Below are positions 19,815 to 31,070 of a stretch of DNA of 34,233 nucleotides, piece by piece; position 1 is the stretch's first letter, and each line of letters begins with the position of its first letter. The notes under the pieces were generated by a model that saw only the letters and a program-made list of their open reading frames with translations, was not told where the DNA came from and searched no databases. A program made the position numbers and the translations under genes. The DNA lies in assembly GCA_016213895.1 (NCBI GenBank), contig JACQZJ010000026.1, positions 1 through 34,233 of the forward strand, in the 5' to 3' direction. The DNA is from Planctomycetota bacterium. Lineage in GTDB: Bacteria; Planctomycetota; B15-G4; JADJEK01.

Positions 19815-22800
19815 TTGAAACGCAAGAAGACGCCGCGAAGCCGAAAGCCGGGGAGCGGCGCGGCGCAGGCCGACTCCGAGTACCGCGCGCTGGTGCTGGC
19901 CGCCCGGGACGCCGGCGGTTTCCGGCTGCTGCTCGCGGTACATGACGATCCTGCCGTGCGCCGCGACGTCGCGGCCCGTCTCGAGACCGACCTTCGCGCG
20001 CGGTCCATCGATCTGGTCCAGGTCGATCTGGCCGAGTCGCCGGAGGAAGGAACGCTGCTCGAGACCGTCCACTCGCGGGTCGAGGCCGCTTCGCGATCGG
20101 ACGCCCGGCTGGTGGTCTCCGTCGTCGGCCTGGACTCGCGCCTGGACTTCTCCCCTGGGGCGCCTGTCGGCGTGCGGTTCCTCGAGGACGCGAACCTGCA
20201 CCGCGACGCGTTCCCGAAGGCCTGTCCATTTCCGTTGATCTTCTGGCTCACGCCTCTCGCGGCCACGGCCCTCGCACGTTCCGCGCCGGACCTGTCGCAC
20301 TGGCGCTCCGCGACCTTCGACTTCTGCGGCCCGTTGCGCGTCGATCCCTCCGACTTCGCTTCGACCTCGGCCCTGGAAAAGCACGAGCACGTCGCGGCCC
20401 TGGTCGAGCGGCTGCAGCGTCTGGAGTCGGTGCCGGGAGCGGACTCGCCGGCGCAGCTCAGGGCCAAGGCGGACCTTCTCGTCCGGTTGGGCATCGCCCA
20501 GCTCGCGACCGGCGCGATCCGCAAAGCGGTCGACATCCTGACCCGGGCGCTGGAGATCGCTCGCCAGATCGGAGATCCACGCATCGAGGGCCGGGTGCTC
20601 GGCAACCTGGGAATGGCCCGCCTCCAGGCCGGGGACGTGCGCGACGGCATCCAGCTTCATGAAGAGCAGCTCGAGATCGCCAGAAGGGTCGGCGACCGCG
20701 AGAGCGAGAACATGGCCCTGCTCCATCTCGGCGTGGGTCATAGCAAGCTGGACGACAGGGCCACTGCGATCAGGCTCTGGACCGAGTGCGCGGACAGGGC
20801 CCGCGAGAGCCGCAACTGGCCGATGGAGAGGAAGGCCGCCGGCAACCTGGTCATCGGACACCTCAAGCAGGACGACCATGCCGCGGCCCTCCGGCTTGCG
20901 GAACGGGAGCTGCAGTGCGCGAGCGAGTTTGGTGATCGGGCAGGAGTCGCAGAGTTCGAGAGCCTCTTGTCCCAGGCGCAACTGCTCGCGGGCGATCTCG
21001 TCCAGGCCGTGGAGCACGGCGAGCGCTCCCTCGAGATGGCGCGCGAGCTGGGAGACCGCCTCCTGGAGGCGCAGGCGAGCTGGAATCTCGGCCTGGCCTA
21101 CCAGCACGCTGGCGAGCTGCCGAAGGCCCTGGAGCTGATGCGGGTCAGGCTCGAGTACGCTCGCGAGATCCAGCTCCCGGATCTGGAGAAGACATCCGCC
21201 CAGGTGGCGGCGCTGGAGGAACGAGTAGTGGGAAAGGAACCGAAGACACAGGGCACGACGAAGCAGACGGTCGAGGCGTGGAAGGAACCGCTCGAGCCGT
21301 TGCGGCGGCGGCTGCACGAAGGCAAGAACGTGGTTCTGCCGCTGGTCGGGTCGGGGATCTCGCAGGGCCTGCCGAGCTGGCGCGCGGTGGTGCGGGAGCT
21401 TCTGGATCGGGTCAAGCCGGTCGCCGCGCGTGACGAGATCGTCCAGCTACACGGGAAGCCGGAGGAGGATCGCGCCGACCTGCTGGGCCTCGCCTCGGAG
21501 ATCGAGATCGAGCTGGGGAAGGAGGCCGTTCGGGACGTCCTGAAGCGGACCTTCGAGAGGCCGGCGGCGCCGGCTCCTTCCGTCTACGAGCTGATCGCCG
21601 CCTTGCCGGTCGATCACTTCGCCACCACCAACTGGGATCCGTGGCTCAGTAGCGCCGTGCGCAGGAAGCACCTCGGCGAGACCGTCCAGGTGTTCACGCC
21701 GATGGACCCGGAGGGGTTTGAGAACGTCCTGGCCGACGCCGCGGCCACGGTCTGGATGCTCCACGGCGACGCGGCGCGGCCGGCGTCGTGCGTGCTGACG
21801 CGGGGGGCCTATGACTCGTTGATCCTGAACAACCGTACCTGGCGGACCGGCGTCACGACTCTGCTCCACCATCGGACGTGGCTGTTCCTGGGCTACTCGC
21901 TCACCGATCCCGACGTCGAGTTCCTGCTGAAGCTCTGGAAGCAGGTCTACCCCGAGAGTGGCACGAAGCACCTGTTGTTGACAGCGGAACCGTCGCCGCG
22001 CCGCGCGCGGGCGCTGCGCGCGCTTGGCGTGGACGTGGTCGAGTACTCGTCCGACCACGGCCACGCGGAGCTGTCGCGGATCCTCCGCTTCCTGGCCACG
22101 CCGCCGGTGAGCCCGCCCGTTGCCGGAACCACGAAGACCAAGAAGGGTGCTGCCTCCACCGCGCCGCCGGACGCCTGGTGGAAGCACGTCGAGTTCGAGT
22201 GCTCCGGCGTGCTCCTCTCCGGTCTGCTGGGAGACAAGCCGGCGCCGCCGCTGAAGCTCGAGGACGTCTACGTCCCCCTGCTGGCGCCGAGGACGGACTT
22301 GGAGCCCCGGGTCGAGGCCAAGACCGAGCGCGACGACGACACGCTGAAGACGCTGGTCAAGGCGCTCCAGGAAGACGCGGCGAAGGTAGCCGACAAGGTG
22401 CTCACCGCGGCGCTGCGCGGCGCCGGCGTTGGCAAGGACGACGCCTCCGCGAAGGCGACCGTCGAGGACACCCGGCGCCGGCTCCTGGAGATTCCCAAGA
22501 ACCGGCTCGACGGGGAGGCGGTGCGCCGCGTGCTTGCCACGCTTGAGCTGGACGCCGTCCTGCGCCGGCACAAGCGCCTTCTCGTGGAAGGAGACCCCGG
22601 CTCCGGCAAGACGACGACGCTGAAGCACGTGGCGATGGCGCTGGTCAAGGCCCACCGCGGTGAGGGCGACGCGGCGCGCTGCATGGGCTTCGCGGCCGGC
22701 GCCGTCCCCGTGTTCGTTCCCCTTCGCGACTTCTGGACGCACTTGCGCTCGGCCAAGAGCCACGACCCGGATTGCGCCGCACGGCTGCTCGAGTACCTCG

Positions 22801-25010
22801 AGAAGCAGCTCGACGCTCACGGCGGAAGCGCGTGGCTCGCCGCGGCGCTCGAGGAAGGCCGCGCCGTGCTTCTCCTCGACGGGCTGGACGAGGTCCTGGA
22901 CCCGGCGCTCCGCACCCGGGCGGCCGCGATCATCCGCGAGTTCCTGCAGGAACACGAGCGCTGCCCGTTCGTGGTCTCGAGTCGGCCGTCGGGCCTGCAG
23001 GAAGGCAACCGCCATGCCTTCCAGTCGGTCGGGCTGGTCCACGCCCAGGTGCAGGACCTCGACGAGGAGCGGGTCGCGCGCTTCGTCCGCGCGTGGTATC
23101 GCGCGCTGATCGCCAATCCCGACAAGGCCGAGGCCGAGACGCAGGACCTGCTGCACCGCATCGCCGGCAAAGCGGCGCGGACCATCCGCGATTTCACGCG
23201 GAAGCCGATCCTGCTCACGGCGTTGGCCGTGGTCCACCAGACGACGGCGCGCCTCCCCGAGAGGAAGGCCGACCTGTACGAGCACTGCGTGCGGGCCCTG
23301 ACCTACCTGTGGGACGACGTCAAGTTCCGCGACATGGCGGACCGGCAGGACGTGTTCACCGCCGACGACAAGCTGAAGTTGCTGCAGCGCATCGCGGCAT
23401 ACATGTTCCGGAACGACTCCCAGACCATCGAGCGCGAAGCAGTCATCCGGCTCGTCTGCGGCCTGCCAGGCGGGAAGGGCCTCGACCACCTGCGGGAGGC
23501 CCTGGAGGAAGCGGGGGCGGATGACGCGGCGCGGTCGCGGTTGGAAGGTGCCCTGGGCCGAGCCCTCGAGCTTCCCGAGGTTCGGAACGTCGCCGAGCTG
23601 CGCGCGCTGGTGGAGCGGGCGCGCGACTTGCCGAACGAGGTGAACCGCGCCGACCTCCAGCACTACCTCGACCTCTCGGCGGGCATCCCCGGAGGGAGGG
23701 ATCTCGGGGAAATGCAGATCCAGACGGCGCTCGCTGCCCTGGCGGAGCGCAGCGGCGTGCTGATCCCCGAGGGATTCGAGGGCTACCGCTTCCGCCACTT
23801 CAGCTTCCAGGAGTTCCTGATGGCGCGCTGGCTGGGGCGCGAAGCCAAGCAGAAGATCATCGCGCTGGCGCCGCGCATTCCGGACTGGCCGGACGTCGCC
23901 CAGCTCGCGGTCGGCTACAGGGCGATCGGCTCGCCGCAGGACGCGACCATGATGGCGCGGGACCTGCTGGCGGACGGGCTTGCGGCCGCGGCGGAGCAGC
24001 CCCAGCGTAAGCACAAGGTGCTCGAGGTGACGGCGCGGACGATCCTGGACCTGATCGAGTACCAGGCGCCGGATCTTGCGCTCGTGTGGAAGAAGGAGAA
24101 GGACGCCTTTCTCGGCGTGCTGAACGACCGGGAGCAGAAGGCCGACTTCGCCTGCAGGCTGGCGGTGGGGGAGATGCTGGGGAAGCTCGGGGATCCGCGG
24201 CTGGCGGACGAAGAACGCTGGGTAGAGGTGCCGGCCGGGCCGTTCCGGATGGGCTCGGATGAAGGCGCTCCGGACGAGAAGCCGGTGCGCCGAGTGCACG
24301 TGTCGGCCTTCCGCATCCAGCGCTGGCCGGTGACGATCGGAGAGTACGGCACGTTCGTGTTGGACGGTGGCTACGGCGAGTGGAAGCTCTGGGACGCCGA
24401 GGGTTGGGAGTGGAGATCGAAGAAGTCGGAGGAGACGCCAGGCCGGTGGGAGAGGCAGCTCCAGAAGCCATCGAACCACCCGGTCACCGGCATGTCCTGG
24501 TGGGCGGCGCAGGCCTTCTGCCGCTGGCTGTCGCGGCGGACGCGGAACCTGCCGGAGGGATTCGAGATCCGGCTGCCCACGGAGGCGGAGTGGGAGAAGG
24601 CGGCGCGGGGCGGGCTCGAGCTGGCGAACGGTCGCGAGAACCCCGCGCCCGATCGCGAGTACCCGTGGGACGGGGAGCTCGACGAAAGCAAGGTCAATGG
24701 GTGGAAACTGGGTCACCGCGGGACGACTCCGGTCGGCATCTTCCCTGCCGGCCACGGCCCGTACGGGACCTGGGACCAGAGCGGCAACGTGTGGGAGTGG
24801 TGCGGCGACTGGTACGGCCCGTACCGCAAGGACGACCTGAAGGACCCCACTGGACCTGAGAAGGGGGAATACCGGGCCGCGCGTGGCGGCTCGTTCGCAT
24901 TCATCCGGCGCAGCCTGCGCGTGTCGTTCCGCCTCGGCTGGTGGCAGCCGGAACTCCGCGGCGACGTCCTCGGTTTCCGCTGCGTCGCCGCCCCTGTCCG
25001 GGGACCTTGA
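19815..25010 (+). CDS. SIR2-NACHT conflict NTPase with TPRs and DGR-diversified FGE/CLec-like C-terminus
   Basis: This 1731-residue protein has, in order, an alpha/beta N-terminal domain of the kind found before TPRs (about 20-190; FRLLLAVHDDPAVRRDVAARL ... [26 protein letters not shown]), kinesin-light-chain-like TPRs (about 220-465), SIR2 (about 500-780) and NACHT (about 905-1250). An FGE-sulfatase/C-type-lectin-like domain follows (about 1467-1728). SIR2 has VGSGIS, TTNWD with N606 and LHGD with H650, so NAD cleavage is likely. NACHT has GDPGSGKTT (K932) and LLLDGLDEV (D1022). The last 40 residues coincide with VR1. In this class, ligand sensing at the C-terminus is thought to trigger NTP-dependent oligomerisation and effector toxicity. 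The start is TTG with weak AGGGG upstream; a different nearby start is possible. Confidence 0.92.
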   Translation: MKRKKTPRSRKPGSGAAQADSEYRALVLAARDAGGFRLLLAVHDDPAVRRDVAARLETDLRARSIDLVQVDLAESPEEGTLLETVHSRVEAASRSDARLVVSVVGLDSRLDFSPGAPVGVRFLEDANLHRDAFPKACPFPLIFWLTPLAATALARSAPDLSHWRSATFDFCGPLRVDPSDFASTSALEKHEHVAALVERLQRLESVPGADSPAQLRAKADLLVRLGIAQLATGAIRKAVDILTRALEIARQIGDPRIEGRVLGNLGMARLQAGDVRDGIQLHEEQLEIARRVGDRESENMALLHLGVGHSKLDDRATAIRLWTECADRARESRNWPMERKAAGNLVIGHLKQDDHAAALRLAERELQCASEFGDRAGVAEFESLLSQAQLLAGDLVQAVEHGERSLEMARELGDRLLEAQASWNLGLAYQHAGELPKALELMRVRLEYAREIQLPDLEKTSAQVAALEERVVGKEPKTQGTTKQTVEAWKEPLEPLRRRLHEGKNVVLPLVGSGISQGLPSWRAVVRELLDRVKPVAARDEIVQLHGKPEEDRADLLGLASEIEIELGKEAVRDVLKRTFERPAAPAPSVYELIAALPVDHFATTNWDPWLSSAVRRKHLGETVQVFTPMDPEGFENVLADAAATVWMLHGDAARPASCVLTRGAYDSLILNNRTWRTGVTTLLHHRTWLFLGYSLTDPDVEFLLKLWKQVYPESGTKHLLLTAEPSPRRARALRALGVDVVEYSSDHGHAELSRILRFLATPPVSPPVAGTTKTKKGAASTAPPDAWWKHVEFECSGVLLSGLLGDKPAPPLKLEDVYVPLLAPRTDLEPRVEAKTERDDDTLKTLVKALQEDAAKVADKVLTAALRGAGVGKDDASAKATVEDTRRRLLEIPKNRLDGEAVRRVLATLELDAVLRRHKRLLVEGDPGSGKTTTLKHVAMALVKAHRGEGDAARCMGFAAGAVPVFVPLRDFWTHLRSAKSHDPDCAARLLEYLEKQLDAHGGSAWLAAALEEGRAVLLLDGLDEVLDPALRTRAAAIIREFLQEHERCPFVVSSRPSGLQEGNRHAFQSVGLVHAQVQDLDEERVARFVRAWYRALIANPDKAEAETQDLLHRIAGKAARTIRDFTRKPILLTALAVVHQTTARLPERKADLYEHCVRALTYLWDDVKFRDMADRQDVFTADDKLKLLQRIAAYMFRNDSQTIEREAVIRLVCGLPGGKGLDHLREALEEAGADDAARSRLEGALGRALELPEVRNVAELRALVERARDLPNEVNRADLQHYLDLSAGIPGGRDLGEMQIQTALAALAERSGVLIPEGFEGYRFRHFSFQEFLMARWLGREAKQKIIALAPRIPDWPDVAQLAVGYRAIGSPQDATMMARDLLADGLAAAAEQPQRKHKVLEVTARTILDLIEYQAPDLALVWKKEKDAFLGVLNDREQKADFACRLAVGEMLGKLGDPRLADEERWVEVPAGPFRMGSDEGAPDEKPVRRVHVSAFRIQRWPVTIGEYGTFVLDGGYGEWKLWDAEGWEWRSKKSEETPGRWERQLQKPSNHPVTGMSWWAAQAFCRWLSRRTRNLPEGFEIRLPTEAEWEKAARGGLELANGRENPAPDREYPWDGELDESKVNGWKLGHRGTTPVGIFPAGHGPYGTWDQSGNVWEWCGDWYGPYRKDDLKDPTGPEKGEYRAARGGSFAFIRRSLRVSFRLGWWQPELRGDVLGFRCVAAPVRGP
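24876..24995 (+). repeat. DGR variable repeat VR1
   Basis: A 120-nt segment aligns without gaps to the template repeat at 26142-26261. The 5' 21 bases and 3' 27 bases are identical. In the 72-nt core, 18 of 21 template adenines are replaced (for example AAC to TTC, CTC, GGC, GTC, CGC; TAC to TTC), against 7 of 51 other bases. This adenine bias is the signature of mutagenic retrohoming. It encodes residues about 1688-1727 of the SIR2-NACHT protein, in the frame RGGSF...LGFRCVAAP. Confidence 0.93.
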
Positions 25011-25037
25011 CGCTCGTCCTTGAGCCTTGATCTTCTT

Positions 25038-25060
25038 GGCCCCGAGCGAAGCGAGGGGCC
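25038..25060 (+). repeat. Hairpin 3' of VR1 (candidate DGR target mark)
   Basis: GGCCCC and GGGGCC form a 6-bp stem enclosing tandem G-A mismatches and the core GCGAAGC, a sequence known for unusually stable DNA mini-hairpins. It lies 43 bases after VR1 and recurs after VR2, not after TR. In the Bordetella phage DGR a hairpin downstream of VR stimulates homing, so an equivalent role is a reasonable inference. Similar GAGCGAAGCGA hairpins are also common gene-end elements in GC-rich genomes. Confidence 0.5.
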
Positions 25061-25070
25061 GCCGCGGAAG

Positions 25071-25120
25071 TCGTTTCCGCACCTTCCCGCGTGCTTCCGC
25101 GAATTTCCGCGGGTTTCCGC
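25071..25120 (+). repeat. Five 10-bp phased repeats, consensus nnnTTTCCGC
   Basis: Five consecutive 10-mers in exact register end in TTTCCGC or a close variant (tcgTTTCCGC, accTTCCCGC, gtgCTTCCGC, gaaTTTCCGC, gggTTTCCGC). They follow the VR1 hairpin and lie 50 bases before the HTH gene start. The 10-bp period equals about one helical turn, so all copies face the same side of the DNA. A matching array follows VR2. Confidence 0.7.
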
Positions 25121-25169: not shown

Positions 25170-25781
25170 ATGGACCTGACCCCCAAGGAAGCGGCGCGCT
25201 ATCTCGGCAAGTCCGAGCGGATGGTCCGCTACCTCCTCAAGTCTGGGAAACTGCCCGGCCGCAAGCAGGACGACAAGTGGCGGATCCCCAAGGACGCCCT
25301 CGAGCCGCTGCTCTCCGACCAGCAGCGCGCCGAGCGCCGCGAACGCGTCGCTGACCTCCGGGAGCGCCTCGACCAGTCGCTCGGCGAGCTGCAGCCGGCC
25401 GCGAAGGACGAGAGCGGGCGCAGCTTCTACTCGGTGCGCGACGTCCGCCTCTTCGGCGCCCTCATCCAGGTTCTCGCCGAGGTGGAGCAGCTCGAGGCGC
25501 CCGCCCTGGCCCGCGTCGCCGACTCGCTTCGCGCCTGCCTCCGGCACCTCGCCGACGGCATCCACCAGTTCGAGATACCCGTGAAGCTCGACCGGCTCAC
25601 GCGCGCGCGCACGGACCTGTGCACCGCGCTGGCCGATCTGCTGGTGCACGCGACGTCCAGCGAGTCGTCGGCGGTCGTTCCCCTCGCCGACCGCATCGAG
25701 GGCGAGATGCTGCGCTCGCTGAACGGCCTGCTGCGGCGCGTCGAGCGCCGCCGTCGCAGGCCCGCGGGAGGCGCCGCGTGA
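25170..25781 (+). CDS. MerR/excisionase-like helix-turn-helix protein of the DGR cassette
   Basis: Residues 1-50 (MDLTPKEAARYLGKSERMVRYLLKSGKLPGRKQDDKWRIPKDALEPLL) form an HTH_17-type winged helix as in excisionases and MerR-like regulators. A charged helix follows (about 52-72), then an all-helical C-terminal region (about 90-195; SFYSVRDVRLFGALIQVLAEVEQLEAPALARVADSLRACLRHLADGIHQFEIP) with no motif I recognise, and a basic end. The 203-residue gene overlaps the Avd gene by four bases (GTGA) and is preceded by a perfect dyad and by the phased repeats that end the VR1 region. It may regulate the cassette or bind the target-site repeats; both are inferences from position. Confidence 0.78.
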   Translation: MDLTPKEAARYLGKSERMVRYLLKSGKLPGRKQDDKWRIPKDALEPLLSDQQRAERRERVADLRERLDQSLGELQPAAKDESGRSFYSVRDVRLFGALIQVLAEVEQLEAPALARVADSLRACLRHLADGIHQFEIPVKLDRLTRARTDLCTALADLLVHATSSESSAVVPLADRIEGEMLRSLNGLLRRVERRRRRPAGGAA

Positions 25782-26116
25782 GCGACCTGCAGGCGCCCCT
25801 CTTCGTCCGCTCCTACGACGTGGCGCGGGAGATCCTGGAGCGGACCGCGCACTTCCCGCGGCAGCAGCGCTTCGTGCTGGCGAGACGTGCCGAGGAGGCG
25901 GCCCTCGACCTCGTGGAGAACGTGGCGCTGGCGCTGCAGTCGAAGGCGGGCCGGATCGACCGCGTCGTCGCCGCCGACCTGGCGCTGACCCGGCTGCGGC
26001 TCGCCTGGCGGCTCGCGCGCGATCGCCGCCACGTGAACGAGCGGGGCTTCCAGCACGTCGCCCTCCAGCTTGGCGAGATCGGCCGGATGCTGGGGGGCTG
26101 GCAGCGGAAGCTTTGA
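25778..26116 (+). CDS. avd: Avd-like four-helix-bundle DGR accessory protein
   Basis: The 112-residue protein starts at a GTG overlapping the HTH stop. It has four amphipathic helices: SYDVAREILERTAHFPRQQRFVLARRAEEAALDLVENVALAL, then RIDRVVAADLALTRLRLAWRLARDRR, then FQHVALQLGEIGRMLGGWQRKL. This is the layout of Avd and of the related four-helix S23-type family: an aromatic-containing first helix, a FP-x-x-QR/F-x-LA turn, and a basic third helix. Avd forms a pentamer that binds the reverse transcriptase and the template RNA and is needed for mutagenic retrohoming. Its place, directly before the TR and RT, fits the standard avd-TR-RT order. The symbol is by analogy. Confidence 0.82.
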   Translation: MSDLQAPLFVRSYDVAREILERTAHFPRQQRFVLARRAEEAALDLVENVALALQSKAGRIDRVVAADLALTRLRLAWRLARDRRHVNERGFQHVALQLGEIGRMLGGWQRKL

Positions 26117-26141: not shown

Positions 26142-26261
26142 GCCGCGCGTGGCGGCTCGTTCCACAACGACCGCAACAGGCTGCGCGTGTCGTACCGCAA
26201 CGACTGGAGGCAACCGGCGAACCGCAACGACAACCTCGGTTTCCGCTGCGTCGCCGCCCCT
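26142..26261 (+). repeat. DGR template repeat (TR)
   Basis: This 120-nt non-coding repeat matches VR1 and VR2 end to end. Read in the VR frame it would encode RGGSFHNDRNRLRVSYRNDW and on to NLGFRCVAAP. It holds 21 adenines, all in the central 72 nt; the 21-nt 5' and 27-nt 3' flanks contain none on this strand. Adenines sit mostly in AAC, GAC, AGG, TAC and CAA codons, where replacement by any base never gives a stop. The 3' 27 nt are identical in TR and both VRs and would act as the homing anchor. Confidence 0.93.
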
Positions 26262-26362
26262 CCTCGAAGACCCAGCCCGTCCGGGATGCGGCGGTCCGTG
26301 GTGCACCGCCGCGCGCGACGGGCCGGGTCCAGGCCGCTCCGGGGCGAACTGATCGCCCGCCC

Positions 26363-26414
26363 GGCCCGTCCGTTCTGGTAGGGCAAACGCCCGAACGTCC
26401 GGACGGGCCCTTTT
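26363..26414 (+). terminator. Long hairpin with T-run between TR and RT
   Basis: GGCCCGTCCG pairs with CGGACGGGCC, with an internal GGGC-AAAC-GCCC hairpin and extra TTC/GAA pairing, followed by CTTTT. It looks like a rho-independent terminator 22 bases before the RT start. It could limit RT expression relative to the template RNA, or be the folded spacer used to prime cDNA. Confidence 0.6.
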
Positions 26415-26436
26415 CCTGCACCGCCGAGGAACGACC

Positions 26437-27438
26437 ATGCGCACGTGCCGGAACCTCTTCGAGAGGGTCATCGCCACGGACAACCTGTTCGCTGCCTGGA
26501 GCGACGCGCGGCGCGGCAAGCGGCGGCGGCCGGACGTGGCGCGGTTCGAGCTGGACGCGGAGTCGCGCCTCCTCGATCTGCGGCGGCTGCTCTTGTCGGG
26601 AGAGTGGCGGCCGGGGCGGTACCGCACCCACGTCCTGCGCGAGCCGAAGAAGCGCCTCATCGCCGCGGCGCCGTTCGCGGACCGCGTGGTCCACCATGCC
26701 ATCCACCGGGTGATCGAGCCGCCGCTCACGCGCCGCTTCCTTCCTGGGACCTTCGCCTGCCGGCCGGGGTTCGGGACCCATCGCGGCGTGCTGGCGTTCC
26801 GCGGTGGGCTGCTGCGCCACCGGTTCGTCGCCCGGCTCGACATCCGCCGCTACTTCCTGGAGGTCGACCACAGAGTCCTGCTCGCAGTGCTGGGTCGAAC
26901 GATCCGGGATCGACGAATGATGGAGCTGCTCGCCCGGATCCTTTCGAGCGGCGCGGCGCTCTACTCCGATCCGCGGGTGCTGGACGCCCTCGGCGTCGGC
27001 GCGGTCTACCGCCCGTCGCCGGCGAAGGGGCTGCCCATCGGCAACCTCACGAGCCAGCTCTTCGCCAACCTCTACCTGGACGGGCTGGACCACTTCGTGA
27101 AGCGCGAGCGGAAGGTCGCGGGGTACTGCCGCTACATGGACGACGTGGTCCTGTTCGGCGACAGGAAAGGGGAGCTGCGGGACCACCTGGACGCGTGCGT
27201 CGACTGGCTCACGCGCGAGCGGCGGCTGGAAGCGCACCGGCTCGTGGTGACGCGGACGGAGGGGGAGCACCGGTTCCTGGGGCACGTGGTCTCGCGCGCC
27301 GGGATCCGCCCGCGGGCGCGGACGGTCAAGCGTCTGGTGCGGCGGGCAAGGGAGAAGGGTCGACTCGCCGGCAGCGAGCGGCGGCGGGACGAGTGGGAGC
27401 GGGAGCTGGTCGCGAACGTCCGGGCCGTGTCCCTCTGA
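26437..27438 (+). CDS. DGR reverse transcriptase
   Basis: The 333-residue enzyme has the reverse transcriptase blocks in order: LREPKKRLIAAAPFADRVVHHAI (about 67-90), PGTFACRPGFGTHRGV (about 104-120), ARLDIRRYFLEVDH (motif A, about 132-145), and GLPIGNLTSQLFANLYLDGLDHF (about 195-217), which carries the [L/I]GxxxSQ form typical of DGR enzymes. The catalytic YMDD lies in GYCRYMDDVVLFG, and HRFLGHVVSRAG follows. It lacks maturase, endonuclease or RNase H domains. It copies TR RNA with adenine-specific errors for transfer into VR1 and VR2. GAGGAA precedes the ATG. The stop lies two bases before the phased repeats of the VR2 side. Confidence 0.94.
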   Translation: MRTCRNLFERVIATDNLFAAWSDARRGKRRRPDVARFELDAESRLLDLRRLLLSGEWRPGRYRTHVLREPKKRLIAAAPFADRVVHHAIHRVIEPPLTRRFLPGTFACRPGFGTHRGVLAFRGGLLRHRFVARLDIRRYFLEVDHRVLLAVLGRTIRDRRMMELLARILSSGAALYSDPRVLDALGVGAVYRPSPAKGLPIGNLTSQLFANLYLDGLDHFVKRERKVAGYCRYMDDVVLFGDRKGELRDHLDACVDWLTRERRLEAHRLVVTRTEGEHRFLGHVVSRAGIRPRARTVKRLVRRAREKGRLAGSERRRDEWERELVANVRAVSL

Positions 27439-27440
27439 TC

Positions 27441-27480
27441 CGCGGAAAGGCGCGGAAATCCGCGGAAATGCACGGAAACG
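27441..27480 (-). repeat. Four 10-bp phased repeats 3' of VR2
   Basis: Four 10-mers in exact register on the plus strand (CGCGGAAAgg, CGCGGAAAtc, CGCGGAAAtg, CACGGAAAcg) are the reverse complement of the TTTCCGC array found after VR1. Seen from VR2 they follow the hairpin, in the same order and spacing as at VR1. Confidence 0.7.
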
Positions 27481-27491
27481 ATTTCCGCGGC

Positions 27492-27513
27492 GGCCCCTCG
27501 CTTCGCTCGGGGC
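27492..27513 (-). repeat. Hairpin 3' of VR2 (candidate DGR target mark)
   Basis: On the minus strand GCCCC and GGGGC form a 5-bp stem around the same GAGCGAAGCGA core as the VR1 hairpin, 53 bases beyond VR2. Sequence between VR2 and hairpin also matches the VR1 side in part (TTGAGCCTTG then TCTTCT), so the two 3' regions share ancestry beyond the coding sequence. Confidence 0.5.
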
Positions 27514-27551
27514 GAAGAGGACCGGAGAAGACCAAGGCTCAAAGGCAAACT

Positions 27552-30500
27552 TCAAGGCCCTGGGGGAGGGGCGGCGACGCAGCGGAAACCGAGGGTGGCG
27601 TGACGGTACGCCGGAGGGCATCGGTCGACGCTGTACGACACGCATAGGAGGCATTGGAAGTCGTCGAACGAGCCGCCACGAGCGGCCCGGAGTACCCCCT
27701 CCTTGGGTCCGGTGGGATGCTCGCGTTCGGTCTGACGGTAGGGTCCGTACCAGTTGCGGCACCACTCCCTGACGTTGCCGCTCTGATCCCACGTTCCGTA
27801 CGGCCCGTGGCCAGCCGGATGACAGCCGACGGGCTGCAAGTGCCTCGATTCGTAGGCTGCTGCGTTCCTTTCGTCCCACCCTCCCACCCACGGCCATTCG
27901 CGCCGCGGTTCGGGGTTCTTGCTGCCATCGGCCAGGTACTCCCCGCCGCGCGCGGCCTTCTCCCACTCGGCTTGGGTGGGCAAGCGGACGATCCAGCCGG
28001 TTCGGGGAAGCGGAACCATATCGGTGAACCAGCGACAGAAAGCCTCAGCCTCCCAGCAGGAAACTCCCACCACCGGATAGTTGCTCGTCCGGGCCAACTG
28101 CTTGCGCCAGCTTCTGGGTGTCGTGACTGCGTTCTCTTCACGCCACGACCAGCCTTCTGCACTCCACAGCGTATGCTTGTCGTAGCCCCCATCCTCGACG
28201 AAGCGCCGGAACTCGGCAATGGTCACAGCCCAGCGCTGGATCGCGAACTCAGAGACCGTGACCAATACCATGGGCCGCTCGGAGCCGGACCAGAAGGGGC
28301 CCTCCGGGACTACGATCCAGCGCTTGTCATCCTCGAGCCGCGGGTCTCGTGTTCTGCCGAGACCCTCGGCCACCTGGATGCGAACGTTCAGAGGTGCTCT
28401 TTGCTTGGGATCCTTGAGCACTGCGAGCACGAAGCCCAGAGCCTCGCGGAGTGGCGAGAGCGTCTTTTCAGGCAGTTGAAACGCCTCCAGGTCCTTCAAG
28501 CACACGGCTGCTGCTGCCACGCGTGGCGCCCACTCTGTCGGGGGCGCCTTCTGGCCGACCAACTTGCGGAGGAACTCCTCGATCCGCTCCTCCGCAGATT
28601 GTTGGGCCAACACGCCGGCCGTCAGCGCCGTGACCTCGGCCCACGCCGGGTCCTCCAGGTGGCGGATCAGCTCGACCGCTGGGTCAGTGCCGTTGGCGAT
28701 CTGCTTCGCGATCAGGTACTCCTGAAAGGTGCGGTGGGGGAAGTGGACCTTGGGGCCGTCCAAGTGGATCAGGCCGACGTTGACCTCGAGGGCGTGCAAT
28801 AGCTCCCTGGCCTGGTCGCGGCAGAGGTCGTCATCGTTGCCATCCAGGCGCGTCGCGAGCAGGCGCTCGGCCTGGTCCCGGCCCAGCGCGTTCTTGCGTG
28901 CGCCGTCCCTGTCCCTGGCGTGGTGCATAGCGCGCGCCAGCGCCTGGAGGTGGCGGAGGATCGCCGGCGGCTTTCCCCACGGCCCGAGAGCCTCCCGCTG
29001 ACGCTCTACTAGGTACTCAACGCACTGGTCGTAGAGGATGGCCCGTTGCTCGGGCAGGCGCTTGCGCGCTCTGTAGACCAGCGCCAGCATGGTCAGGGTT
29101 TGGGGATTGGCGGCGAGGTTTCGCACTTCAGGCGAGCCCCGGACAGCGGCCTTCATCCCGGCCGCAACGCTCTCCGGGTCGCCTGCTGTCCGAGCCCAGC
29201 GGTTGAGGAACTCGTCCATCGCCTTGTCGTCAAGGGGCTGGATCTCCACCTCGTCGAAGCGAGAGAAGGCCTTGTCGCCGCCCCACGCCCGCGTGCGGCA
29301 GGCGACAACGAAGCGGTTCTTGTTGTCCTTCCATCCCGGGAAGGCGTCCGCGAAAGCCGAGATGGCGGCGGCAAGGCGCTTGCGGCTTCTTTCGCCTGCC
29401 ACCTCGTCAAGACCGTCGAGAAGGACCAGCAGGCCGCCGCAACAGAGCAGGCTCTCCATTCCCTCGCCGCTCAGCGCGATCCCGCTATCGGCGCGGATCT
29501 GAGCGGCAAGAGCATCGGGCCAGGCCGACACATCCGGGTCCCGCGCCACCTTGGTGGGCAACCGCTCGGCCAAGTGAGTGAGCCGGAAGAGGAGCGGCGG
29601 TGGCAGCGGCTCGAAGCCGAGGCGATCAGCAAGGCCGTGCTGGTCCGTGGTCGTCAGACCGCGCGCAAGGAGGAGGGCCACGTAGCGGAGGAGCGTGGTC
29701 TTGCCGGAGCCCGGCTCGCCGGTAATCGCGAGCAACTCGGATGTGGGCAGCACGTCCTTCAGGTCGAGGTCATCGCGTGCGGCGCCGGTCTCGGTGTCCC
29801 GATCCTCATGGCGCGTCCGGCGGCTGACGATGCGGAGCTTTACGTAGACGCGGTCCAGCTCGATGTTGTTCACGTCGCGAGTGCTGATCCCGGGCACGTC
29901 GACGTAGCGCAACCTCCGCACCAGCCATTCCAGGTACGGCCGCAGATCCAGCGTTGTGGCGGCAGTCAGTGGGGCACGCGCCAGGCCGGCGCCGATCGTG
30001 CGCAGGGGGACAGCCTCGGGAGGACTTCCTTGGTCGGCCTTGTCCAGGTTCTCGGTCGGCTCGGGCTTGAAGTCCCAGGTGCCGTCCTGGAGCTGCATCG
30101 CCCGGCGCGGCCAGAAGCGGATCTGCCCTGTTCCATCGGGGAGCAGCGCCAGCCGCCCGACCGCGTAGCCGTGGATGCGTTCTTTCTCGCCGTCGAAGGT
30201 CCTGAGGCCGGACAGCGATGCCGCCTGGTGGATTCTGCGCTCGACGCCGCCTCCCTTTCTCGTCGTCTCGCGCGCGTCCACGTGCAAATGCCCGCAGAGG
30301 TGCGCGACGATCCGGTCGTCCGCGAAGATCCCGGAGCGGTACCCAGCGAGCGCCCGCGACGACAGCCATGACGGCGGGTGGTGCGACACCAGGAGCACGC
30401 CGTGGTGGCGCCCTTCCCACTTGACCGCGTCGCCGCCGCAGGCCTGGTGGTACTGCTCTACCTCCAGTGCGAGCTTCCCCTGGTGGTTGCCGTCACCGAT

Positions 30501-31070
30501 CTGCAGGAACGCGCTGTTCAGCCCTGCGATGCCGAGGCGCAGCCGGCCGTCTTGGCTGGCGACGGTGGCGCTGAAGTCCTCGGGGAGCAGTCCGGGCTGG
30601 CGATCGGCGCCGACCCGGTCGCAGTCCTCCAGCCAACGCCGGTACGCCTGGAAGGCGTCGCTCACCATGGTGAACGCGTCGTTCCTCGCCAGGAAGTCGG
30701 CGCGCGCCTGGTCGTCGTCGAACTGCTTCAGATCGCGCAGCCGCGAGCGCACGTCCGACAGCGTTGGATCGGGCCGCACCAGGTCGTGGTTGCCGGGCAC
30801 AGAGTAGAGCGGCGCCCGGCCCGAGCCGACGCGCTCCAGCTCCGCGTAGAGATCGTCGAGCACTCCCTTGAGCCCCTCGAAGTCCGCGTCCGTCCCCCGG
30901 TGCGTCAGGTCGCCCGTGAACAGCACCACGTCCAGCGGCCCGCCCGCCAGCTTCAGCACTGCCTCCAGGTCCTCGAAGAACCGCTGCCGCACCCTGGGCC
31001 AGAGGTTCTTCGAATCCGGATGCCCCCAGTGCAGGTCGGTGAGATGCAGCCAGCGGATAGCCGACGACAT
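27552..31070 (-). CDS. Metallophosphoesterase-NACHT conflict NTPase with DGR-diversified FGE/CLec-like C-terminus
   Basis: The 1172-residue protein starts with a calcineurin-like phosphoesterase (about 1-310) bearing all metal ligands: D12 and H14 in TDLHWG, GDLTHRG (D54), GNHD (N94, H95), H230 in SHHPP and GHLH (H261, H263). NACHT (about 385-750) has GEPGSGKTT (K457) and LLDGLDEVAG (D552). A helical region and an FGE/C-type-lectin-like domain (about 915-1169) follow, ending in VR2. The phosphoesterase would be a nuclease or nucleotide hydrolase effector released on sensing, a different effector from the SIR2 protein but with the same sensor design. The genes converge on the cassette from both sides. 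GGAGGA precedes the ATG but is locked in an inverted repeat. Confidence 0.93.
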   Translation of the reverse strand: MSSAIRWLHLTDLHWGHPDSKNLWPRVRQRFFEDLEAVLKLAGGPLDVVLFTGDLTHRGTDADFEGLKGVLDDLYAELERVGSGRAPLYSVPGNHDLVRPDPTLSDVRSRLRDLKQFDDDQARADFLARNDAFTMVSDAFQAYRRWLEDCDRVGADRQPGLLPEDFSATVASQDGRLRLGIAGLNSAFLQIGDGNHQGKLALEVEQYHQACGGDAVKWEGRHHGVLLVSHHPPSWLSSRALAGYRSGIFADDRIVAHLCGHLHVDARETTRKGGGVERRIHQAASLSGLRTFDGEKERIHGYAVGRLALLPDGTGQIRFWPRRAMQLQDGTWDFKPEPTENLDKADQGSPPEAVPLRTIGAGLARAPLTAATTLDLRPYLEWLVRRLRYVDVPGISTRDVNNIELDRVYVKLRIVSRRTRHEDRDTETGAARDDLDLKDVLPTSELLAITGEPGSGKTTLLRYVALLLARGLTTTDQHGLADRLGFEPLPPPLLFRLTHLAERLPTKVARDPDVSAWPDALAAQIRADSGIALSGEGMESLLCCGGLLVLLDGLDEVAGERSRKRLAAAISAFADAFPGWKDNKNRFVVACRTRAWGGDKAFSRFDEVEIQPLDDKAMDEFLNRWARTAGDPESVAAGMKAAVRGSPEVRNLAANPQTLTMLALVYRARKRLPEQRAILYDQCVEYLVERQREALGPWGKPPAILRHLQALARAMHHARDRDGARKNALGRDQAERLLATRLDGNDDDLCRDQARELLHALEVNVGLIHLDGPKVHFPHRTFQEYLIAKQIANGTDPAVELIRHLEDPAWAEVTALTAGVLAQQSAEERIEEFLRKLVGQKAPPTEWAPRVAAAAVCLKDLEAFQLPEKTLSPLREALGFVLAVLKDPKQRAPLNVRIQVAEGLGRTRDPRLEDDKRWIVVPEGPFWSGSERPMVLVTVSEFAIQRWAVTIAEFRRFVEDGGYDKHTLWSAEGWSWREENAVTTPRSWRKQLARTSNYPVVGVSCWEAEAFCRWFTDMVPLPRTGWIVRLPTQAEWEKAARGGEYLADGSKNPEPRREWPWVGGWDERNAAAYESRHLQPVGCHPAGHGPYGTWDQSGNVREWCRNWYGPYRQTEREHPTGPKEGVLRAARGGSFDDFQCLLCVSYSVDRCPPAYRHATLGFRCVAAPPPGP
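27567..27686 (-). repeat. DGR variable repeat VR2
   Basis: This 120-nt segment aligns to TR without gaps. The 3' 27 nt are identical and the 5' 21 nt differ once. In the 72-nt core, 14 of 21 template adenines differ (AAC to TGC, GTC, TAC, CAC, ACC; GAC to GCC) but 13 of 51 other bases also differ, so VR2 is a less exact match to the present TR than VR1. It encodes residues about 1129-1168 of the metallophosphoesterase-NACHT protein and includes three cysteine codons absent from TR. Confidence 0.88.

Follow-up and report, generated by a model that had tools for sequence, protein, structure and literature searches.

Adenine confinement in the template repeat of a chromosomal Planctomycetota DGR and synonymous adenine avoidance across FGE-type templates

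Adenine-poor template ends are kept so by selection in FGE-type diversity-generating retroelements (DGRs), as shown by a comparison of 49 template repeats (TRs). The comparison started from a 34,233-bp contig (the window, that is, the whole stretch of DNA analyzed) within a 5.5-Mb assembly of a Planctomycetota bacterium, in which all adenines of the conserved part of one TR are confined to a stop-proof core. As part of our best explanation of the whole locus, positions 26142-26272 are very probably the TR of a chromosomal DGR with two NACHT-FGE/CLec targets. Seen in this TR alone, adenine confinement is nothing unusual for a DGR; across the family, it is a rule with statistical backing. On balance, we favor the view that selection acts on FGE-type TRs at the nucleotide level to keep adenine out of both ends, even at synonymous sites, which would leave every cDNA with a mutation-proof homology arm on each side; exclusion of adenine from the arms and stop-proofing of the core would be two separate design rules.

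Organization of the locus

The surroundings of positions 26142-26261 form a complete DGR with the gene order target 1 (+), HTH, bAvd, TR, RT, and target 2 (-). The reverse transcriptase (RT; 26437-27438, + strand) carries the motifs IGNLTSQ and YMDD in its translation and matches RVT_1 over the cut-off (1.9e-11). In an RT tree, it groups with seven relatives (L127, L162, L214, L215, and L263 to L265; support 0.999), and in all eight loci of this clade an upstream target is paired with a downstream, convergent one. The accessory protein bAvd (25778-26116, + strand) matches the Pfam bAvd model at 9.5e-17 (61.9 bits vs. a cut-off of 40); its score against NCBIfam DivGenRetAVD was 70.1 bits, below the cut-off of 80. 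According to Pfam, target 1 (19815-25010, + strand, start codon uncertain) is a TPR-SIR2-NACHT-FGE/CLec protein, and target 2 (27552-31070, - strand) is a metallophosphoesterase-NACHT-FGE/CLec protein. Their FGE-sulfatase domains (3e-58 and 3e-45, Pfam) terminate in VR1 (24876-24995, + strand) and VR2 (27567-27686, - strand), respectively. A GC hairpin, GGCCCCGAGCGAAGCGAGGGGCC, lies downstream of target 1 (25038-25060, + strand) and an identical one downstream of target 2 (27492-27514, - strand; DNA fold z -3.5). DNA folding supported both, and a genome-wide search found only these two copies, one per target. The TR-RT spacer (26262-26436, + strand) has a strong predicted RNA structure (MFE -95.6 kcal/mol, z -2.5 vs. 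shuffled sequence), and an Rfam search around the TR returned zero matches.

The window therefore holds the features by which DGRs are recognized: an RT with motif 4 of the form (I/V/L)GxxxSQ and YxDD, an accessory protein, VRs at the C-terminal end of CLec-fold targets, TR/VR differences concentrated at TR adenines, and an IMH/IMH*-type difference with a downstream hairpin. The identification of a DGR template, first made by a sequence-only reading of the window, is upheld by the presence of the RT, bAvd, the TR/VR pairs, and the FGE-NACHT targets.

Both targets resemble immune sensors, target 1 with its ThsA-like SIR2 (PADLOC) behind TPRs and target 2 with a PDC-S60-like metallophosphoesterase. 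These N-terminal effectors are unrelated despite a shared 3' segment (24729-25112 and 27440-27833, in inverted orientation), which takes in the end of the FGE domain and runs on for about 110 nt past the stop through a CTTGA-rich tract, the hairpin, and GCGGAAA repeats, in that order. The shared segment stops exactly at the RT stop codon. We considered a truncation of the RT by the 3' UTR of target 2 and rejected it, the RTs of L127 and L162 from the same clade being equally long. More widely, the 5.5-Mb genome holds 29 FGE-sulfatase domain matches, one of which is the TR itself, and several lie in ORFs of 900 to 1350 codons.

Adenines, codons, and boundary of the template

Adenine occurs exactly 21 times in the conserved 120-nt part of the TR (26142-26261, + strand), first at 26164 and last at 26233. 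This leaves a mutable core of 70 nt (26164-26233) between adenine-free ends of 22 nt on the 5' side (26142-26163) and 28 nt on the 3' side (26234-26261). The sequence-only reading had counted the 21 adenines correctly and placed them centrally; the lengths that it gave (21, 72, and 27 nt) were one base off. The 5' flank encodes the RGGSF motif and is a putative 5' homology arm, with 21 of its 22 nt identical between VR1 and VR2. On the other side, the tract encoding GFRCVAAP, a putative 3' homology arm or IMH-like region, is free of adenine over 33 nt (26234-26266), is internal to the repeat, and is identical between the two VRs over 26234-26261 (28/28).

In the target frame, 14 codons of the TR contain adenine, namely AAC (six), GAC (three), AGG (two), CAC, TAC, and CAA. 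The only sense codons that can become stops upon adenine replacement are AAA, AAG, and AGA. None occurs among the 14 codons, and the earlier statement that each of the 21 adenines is safe from stops is correct. So is the figure of 4^21 (4.4e12) variants that the core could reach at the DNA level, which corresponds to 5.25e11 proteins.

The 3' boundary at 26261 proved too short. Alignment with a repeat finder extended the TR/VR homology over 131 nt, to about 26272, which adds about 11 nt of a diverged, IMH*-like end and three adenines (A26267, A26268, and A26270); over 26142-26272, the TR is a 77% repeat of VR1 and a 76% repeat of VR2. The ends of the 120-nt cut do lack any mutable base, as had been proposed, but the flank as a whole does not, since the 3' homology continues into these adenines. 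The sequence-only reading had itself named such an extension as grounds against its claim. Homologous ends are found in the RT-clade relatives, where TR/VR homology likewise reaches the last codons of the targets. Near the target end, a TR adenine faces a VR guanine in five of the seven relatives: CAA (TR) against CAG (both VRs) for L162 and L127, GAA/GAG for L214, and AAC/AGC for L215 and L265; L263 and L264 have no such difference there. The window has AGA in the TR and GGA and GGG in the VRs at the same place. This looks like an IMH*/IMH-type difference, as in BPP-1, and adenines 26267, 26268, and 26270 look as if they face fixed differences of this type rather than random mutations.

Divergence between the template and its targets

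VR1 differs from the TR at 18 of the 21 adenine sites and at 7 of the 99 other sites (p 5e-13), and VR2 at 14 of 21 and 14 of 99 (p 3e-6). The share of mismatches facing adenine is 72% for VR1 and 50% for VR2. These values are low for a DGR, a share of at least 75% being near-universal (Roux et al., PMC8144416). The non-adenine mismatches are nearly all in the core, some are synonymous, and four are at identical positions in both VRs. Given 7 and 14 such mismatches, it was not the present TR that wrote the present VR cores, contrary to the implication of the sequence-only reading that it now generates VR diversity. Since the TR and VRs have come apart at non-adenine sites, full copying has probably not been recent in this genome; the DGR may be dormant, or active only on rare occasions. 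We also searched the rest of the genome for remote VRs of this TR and found none, the remaining matches being of only about 20 nt.

Non-adenine mismatches are in excess at columns that are adenine in relatives (codon positions 1 and 2, 0.56 vs. 0.15, p 0.001; core only, p 0.04). Part of them could be TR adenines lost since the last copying, a reading that is only suggestive because one of those adenines is already missing from L215, the closest relative. Loss of TR adenines would explain the mismatches only in part, as many are at third codon positions. Errors made beside adenines were rejected as a source, adjacency not being enriched (p 0.19 and 0.71).

A dormant or decaying DGR, in which the TR and VRs are relics that drift separately and diversity no longer comes from the tidy TR, is a serious contender that we hold at slightly below an even chance. 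The mismatch counts, synonymous changes included, compared with 0 to 4 in the TR/VR pairs of RT-clade relatives, speak for it, as does the excess at columns that are adenine in relatives. Set against this, the RT, bAvd, the HTH gene, and both target ORFs are open, the hairpins are present, and the end of the RT matches those of L127 and L162. In addition, the two flanks of VR1 and VR2 are still identical at 49 of 50 positions, compared with 111 of 147 in the coding DNA immediately upstream; this contrast agrees with the reading of the flanks as homology arms.

Chance expectation and family-wide comparison

If 21 adenines were placed at random, adenine-free flanks would have a probability of 2.7e-6, but random placement is the wrong null for this test. 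Once the encoded protein and local codon use are taken into account, two flanks that both lack adenine have a probability of 0.20-0.23, and the absence of any stop-prone codon from the 14 has a probability of 0.22. Among 18 non-DGR FGE paralogues of the same genome (a count that omits the VR-like L022 and L023), the 5' flank is free of adenine in six, the 3' flank in four, and both in one. From this TR alone, neither the adenine-free flanks nor the stop avoidance is significant, and we rejected the idea that the flanks stand out by themselves. What is exceptional here is the adenine-rich core (21/71 vs. 6-17 in the paralogues), with its six AAC codons (P = 3e-5). The adenine sites of the TR match columns that are adenine in most of 37 relatives.

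To extend the comparison to the family, RT relatives were collected from IMG/VR, GTDB genomes, and the phylum of the window. TR/VR pairs were detected by script, with a candidate pair in 134 of 160 loci (IMG/VR and GTDB) and 91 non-redundant TRs after filtering. Because assigning the frame from the longest ORF failed in about 14 of the 91, the main tests use only TRs framed by the RGG...GFR motif. In 49 FGE-type TRs, synonymous flank codons containing adenine numbered 26, compared with 97.1 expected from the codon use of each target (z -9.3). There was no such depletion in the 40 codons upstream of the VRs (205 vs. 190 expected), and 35 non-DGR FGE genes had 49 at the same positions, compared with 56.7 expected. 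The contrast between DGR and control flanks, 0.27 vs. 0.86 of expectation, was significant (p = 5e-7). Stop-prone codons were also scarce in TR cores, at 15 of 800 (1.9%); control cores had 23 of 383 (6.0%), and the remainder of the target ORFs had 9.4%. The alignment of related TRs that the sequence-only reading had proposed as a check therefore comes out in its favor: flank adenine exclusion and stop avoidance both exceed the expectation from codon use, and they hold as rules of the family. Some TRs of the same RT clade, those of L263 and L264, nevertheless carry adenine in the 5' flank.

Adenine-free ends could also arise as a by-product, without selection, if the CLec fold motifs (RGGSF, GFRC) simply need no adenine in a GC-rich genome. 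The probability of 0.20-0.23 obtained for this TR and the single adenine-free flanks in 4 to 6 of its 18 paralogues fit such an origin. We consider it improbable, and it is strongly disfavored for the family, where the 49 TRs are so much more depleted than the 35 controls and the depletion is absent immediately upstream of the VRs. Selection for adenine-free ends remains the reading that we prefer. Stop avoidance in DGR templates has already been published (PMC10907252, PMC12875486); a limited phrase search of the open-access literature returned no report of synonymous adenine avoidance or adenine-free TR flanks.

HTH protein and orphan targets

Just upstream of avd, positions 25170-25781 (+ strand) encode an HTH_17/excisionase-type protein (Pfam). 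Its gene has a homologue in seven of the eight RT-clade loci, being absent from L127, and homologues are encoded in L162, L214, L215, L263, L264, L265, and L262. When 392 genomes of the phylum were searched, five of the matches outside the window were in such DGRs and the others beside orphan VR-like targets on contig C62. These orphan targets, in the same genome as the window, are a pair of long FGE-domain genes (L262, G000:C62, 333-3713 and 4580-7513, minus strand) whose flanks are almost the same and whose core varies, much as in two VRs that share a single TR; a homologue of the HTH gene lies between them. No TR match was found for the pair, and only one RVT_1 domain was found in the whole genome assembly.

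The C-terminal half of the HTH protein is a predicted four-helix bundle (pLDDT 86). Its best Foldseek matches were chains of the S23 family; Avd was matched at E 0.07-0.2, in a search where helical bundles match easily. The VIA Z scores of 12-14 are equaled by those of unrelated bundles, and at the sequence level no connection of the HTH protein with Avd was found. A possible Avd-like fold of the predicted bundle is a lead. In the RT clade of the window, an HTH protein with such a bundle might guide the RT-Avd-cDNA complex to the hairpins that follow the targets, an idea that we regard as unlikely.

Comparison with known systems

The closest layouts are in the RT clade itself, where L162 (a Chromatiaceae MAG) and L214, L215, and L263 to L265 (same phylum) follow the order target 1, HTH, (Avd), TR, RT, and convergent target 2. 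Their TRs and VRs are in register, with few non-adenine mismatches, unlike those of the window. An RT that in this element errs at C and G besides A could account for numerous non-adenine mismatches located in the core, but is very improbable given these relatives of the same clade, the C/G-rich flanks with only 0/49 and 1/49 mismatches, and the lack of enrichment beside adenines.

The clade-5 DGRs of Thiohalocapsa PB-PSB1, especially clade 5D with its STAND NTPase-CLec targets (Doré et al., 2024, PMC10907252), are also chromosomal. In clade 5D as in the window, there are two targets, each with one C-terminal CLec of the FGE type, a central NACHT/STAND NTPase (NACHT in both targets of the window), and an N-terminal effector-like domain; this likeness is one of target architecture, the RT having been placed only in our own tree. 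Targeted codons cannot yield stops in either system, and HTH genes were reported near some PB-PSB1 loci (DGR 8), as found here. Unlike in PB-PSB1 clade 5, the TR and VRs of the window are out of register and target 2 is convergent with the RT.

The window shares with the DGR of Bordetella phage BPP-1 (mtd/avd/TR/brt; Guo et al., 2011, PMC3240598) the TR-RT-Avd logic, adenine-specific differences, an IMH*/IMH-like 3' difference, a hairpin downstream of the VR, and a structured spacer after the TR. It differs in being chromosomal, in having a pair of large NACHT targets where BPP-1 has a phage tail-fiber gene, and in its extra HTH gene. The hairpin is also tens of bases past the VR, compared with 4 bp in BPP-1.

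Proposed mechanism and implications

By homology with BPP-1, an RT-Avd complex would reverse-transcribe the TR RNA, misincorporating opposite template adenines, and the cDNA would replace the VR of a target by retrohoming. Only codons for residues at the surface of the CLec core would contain adenine, and the conserved motifs of the fold that flank them (RGGSF and GFRCV) are written without it. Both cDNA ends would then stay identical to the target and could serve as mutation-proof homology arms, and avoidance of AAA, AAG, and AGA in the core would leave any variant translatable.

An impression from one sequence has become a measured rule, namely that adenine is avoided at template ends even at positions where a synonymous codon containing it is in normal use. 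The window also illustrates that good design in a TR is no guarantee of register with its targets; figures for diversity such as 4^21 therefore call for a check of the non-adenine mismatches. The avoidance of adenine at the ends lends support to the view that an unmutated arm on each side is required for DGR homing, and it offers a simple guide for laboratory DGR templates.
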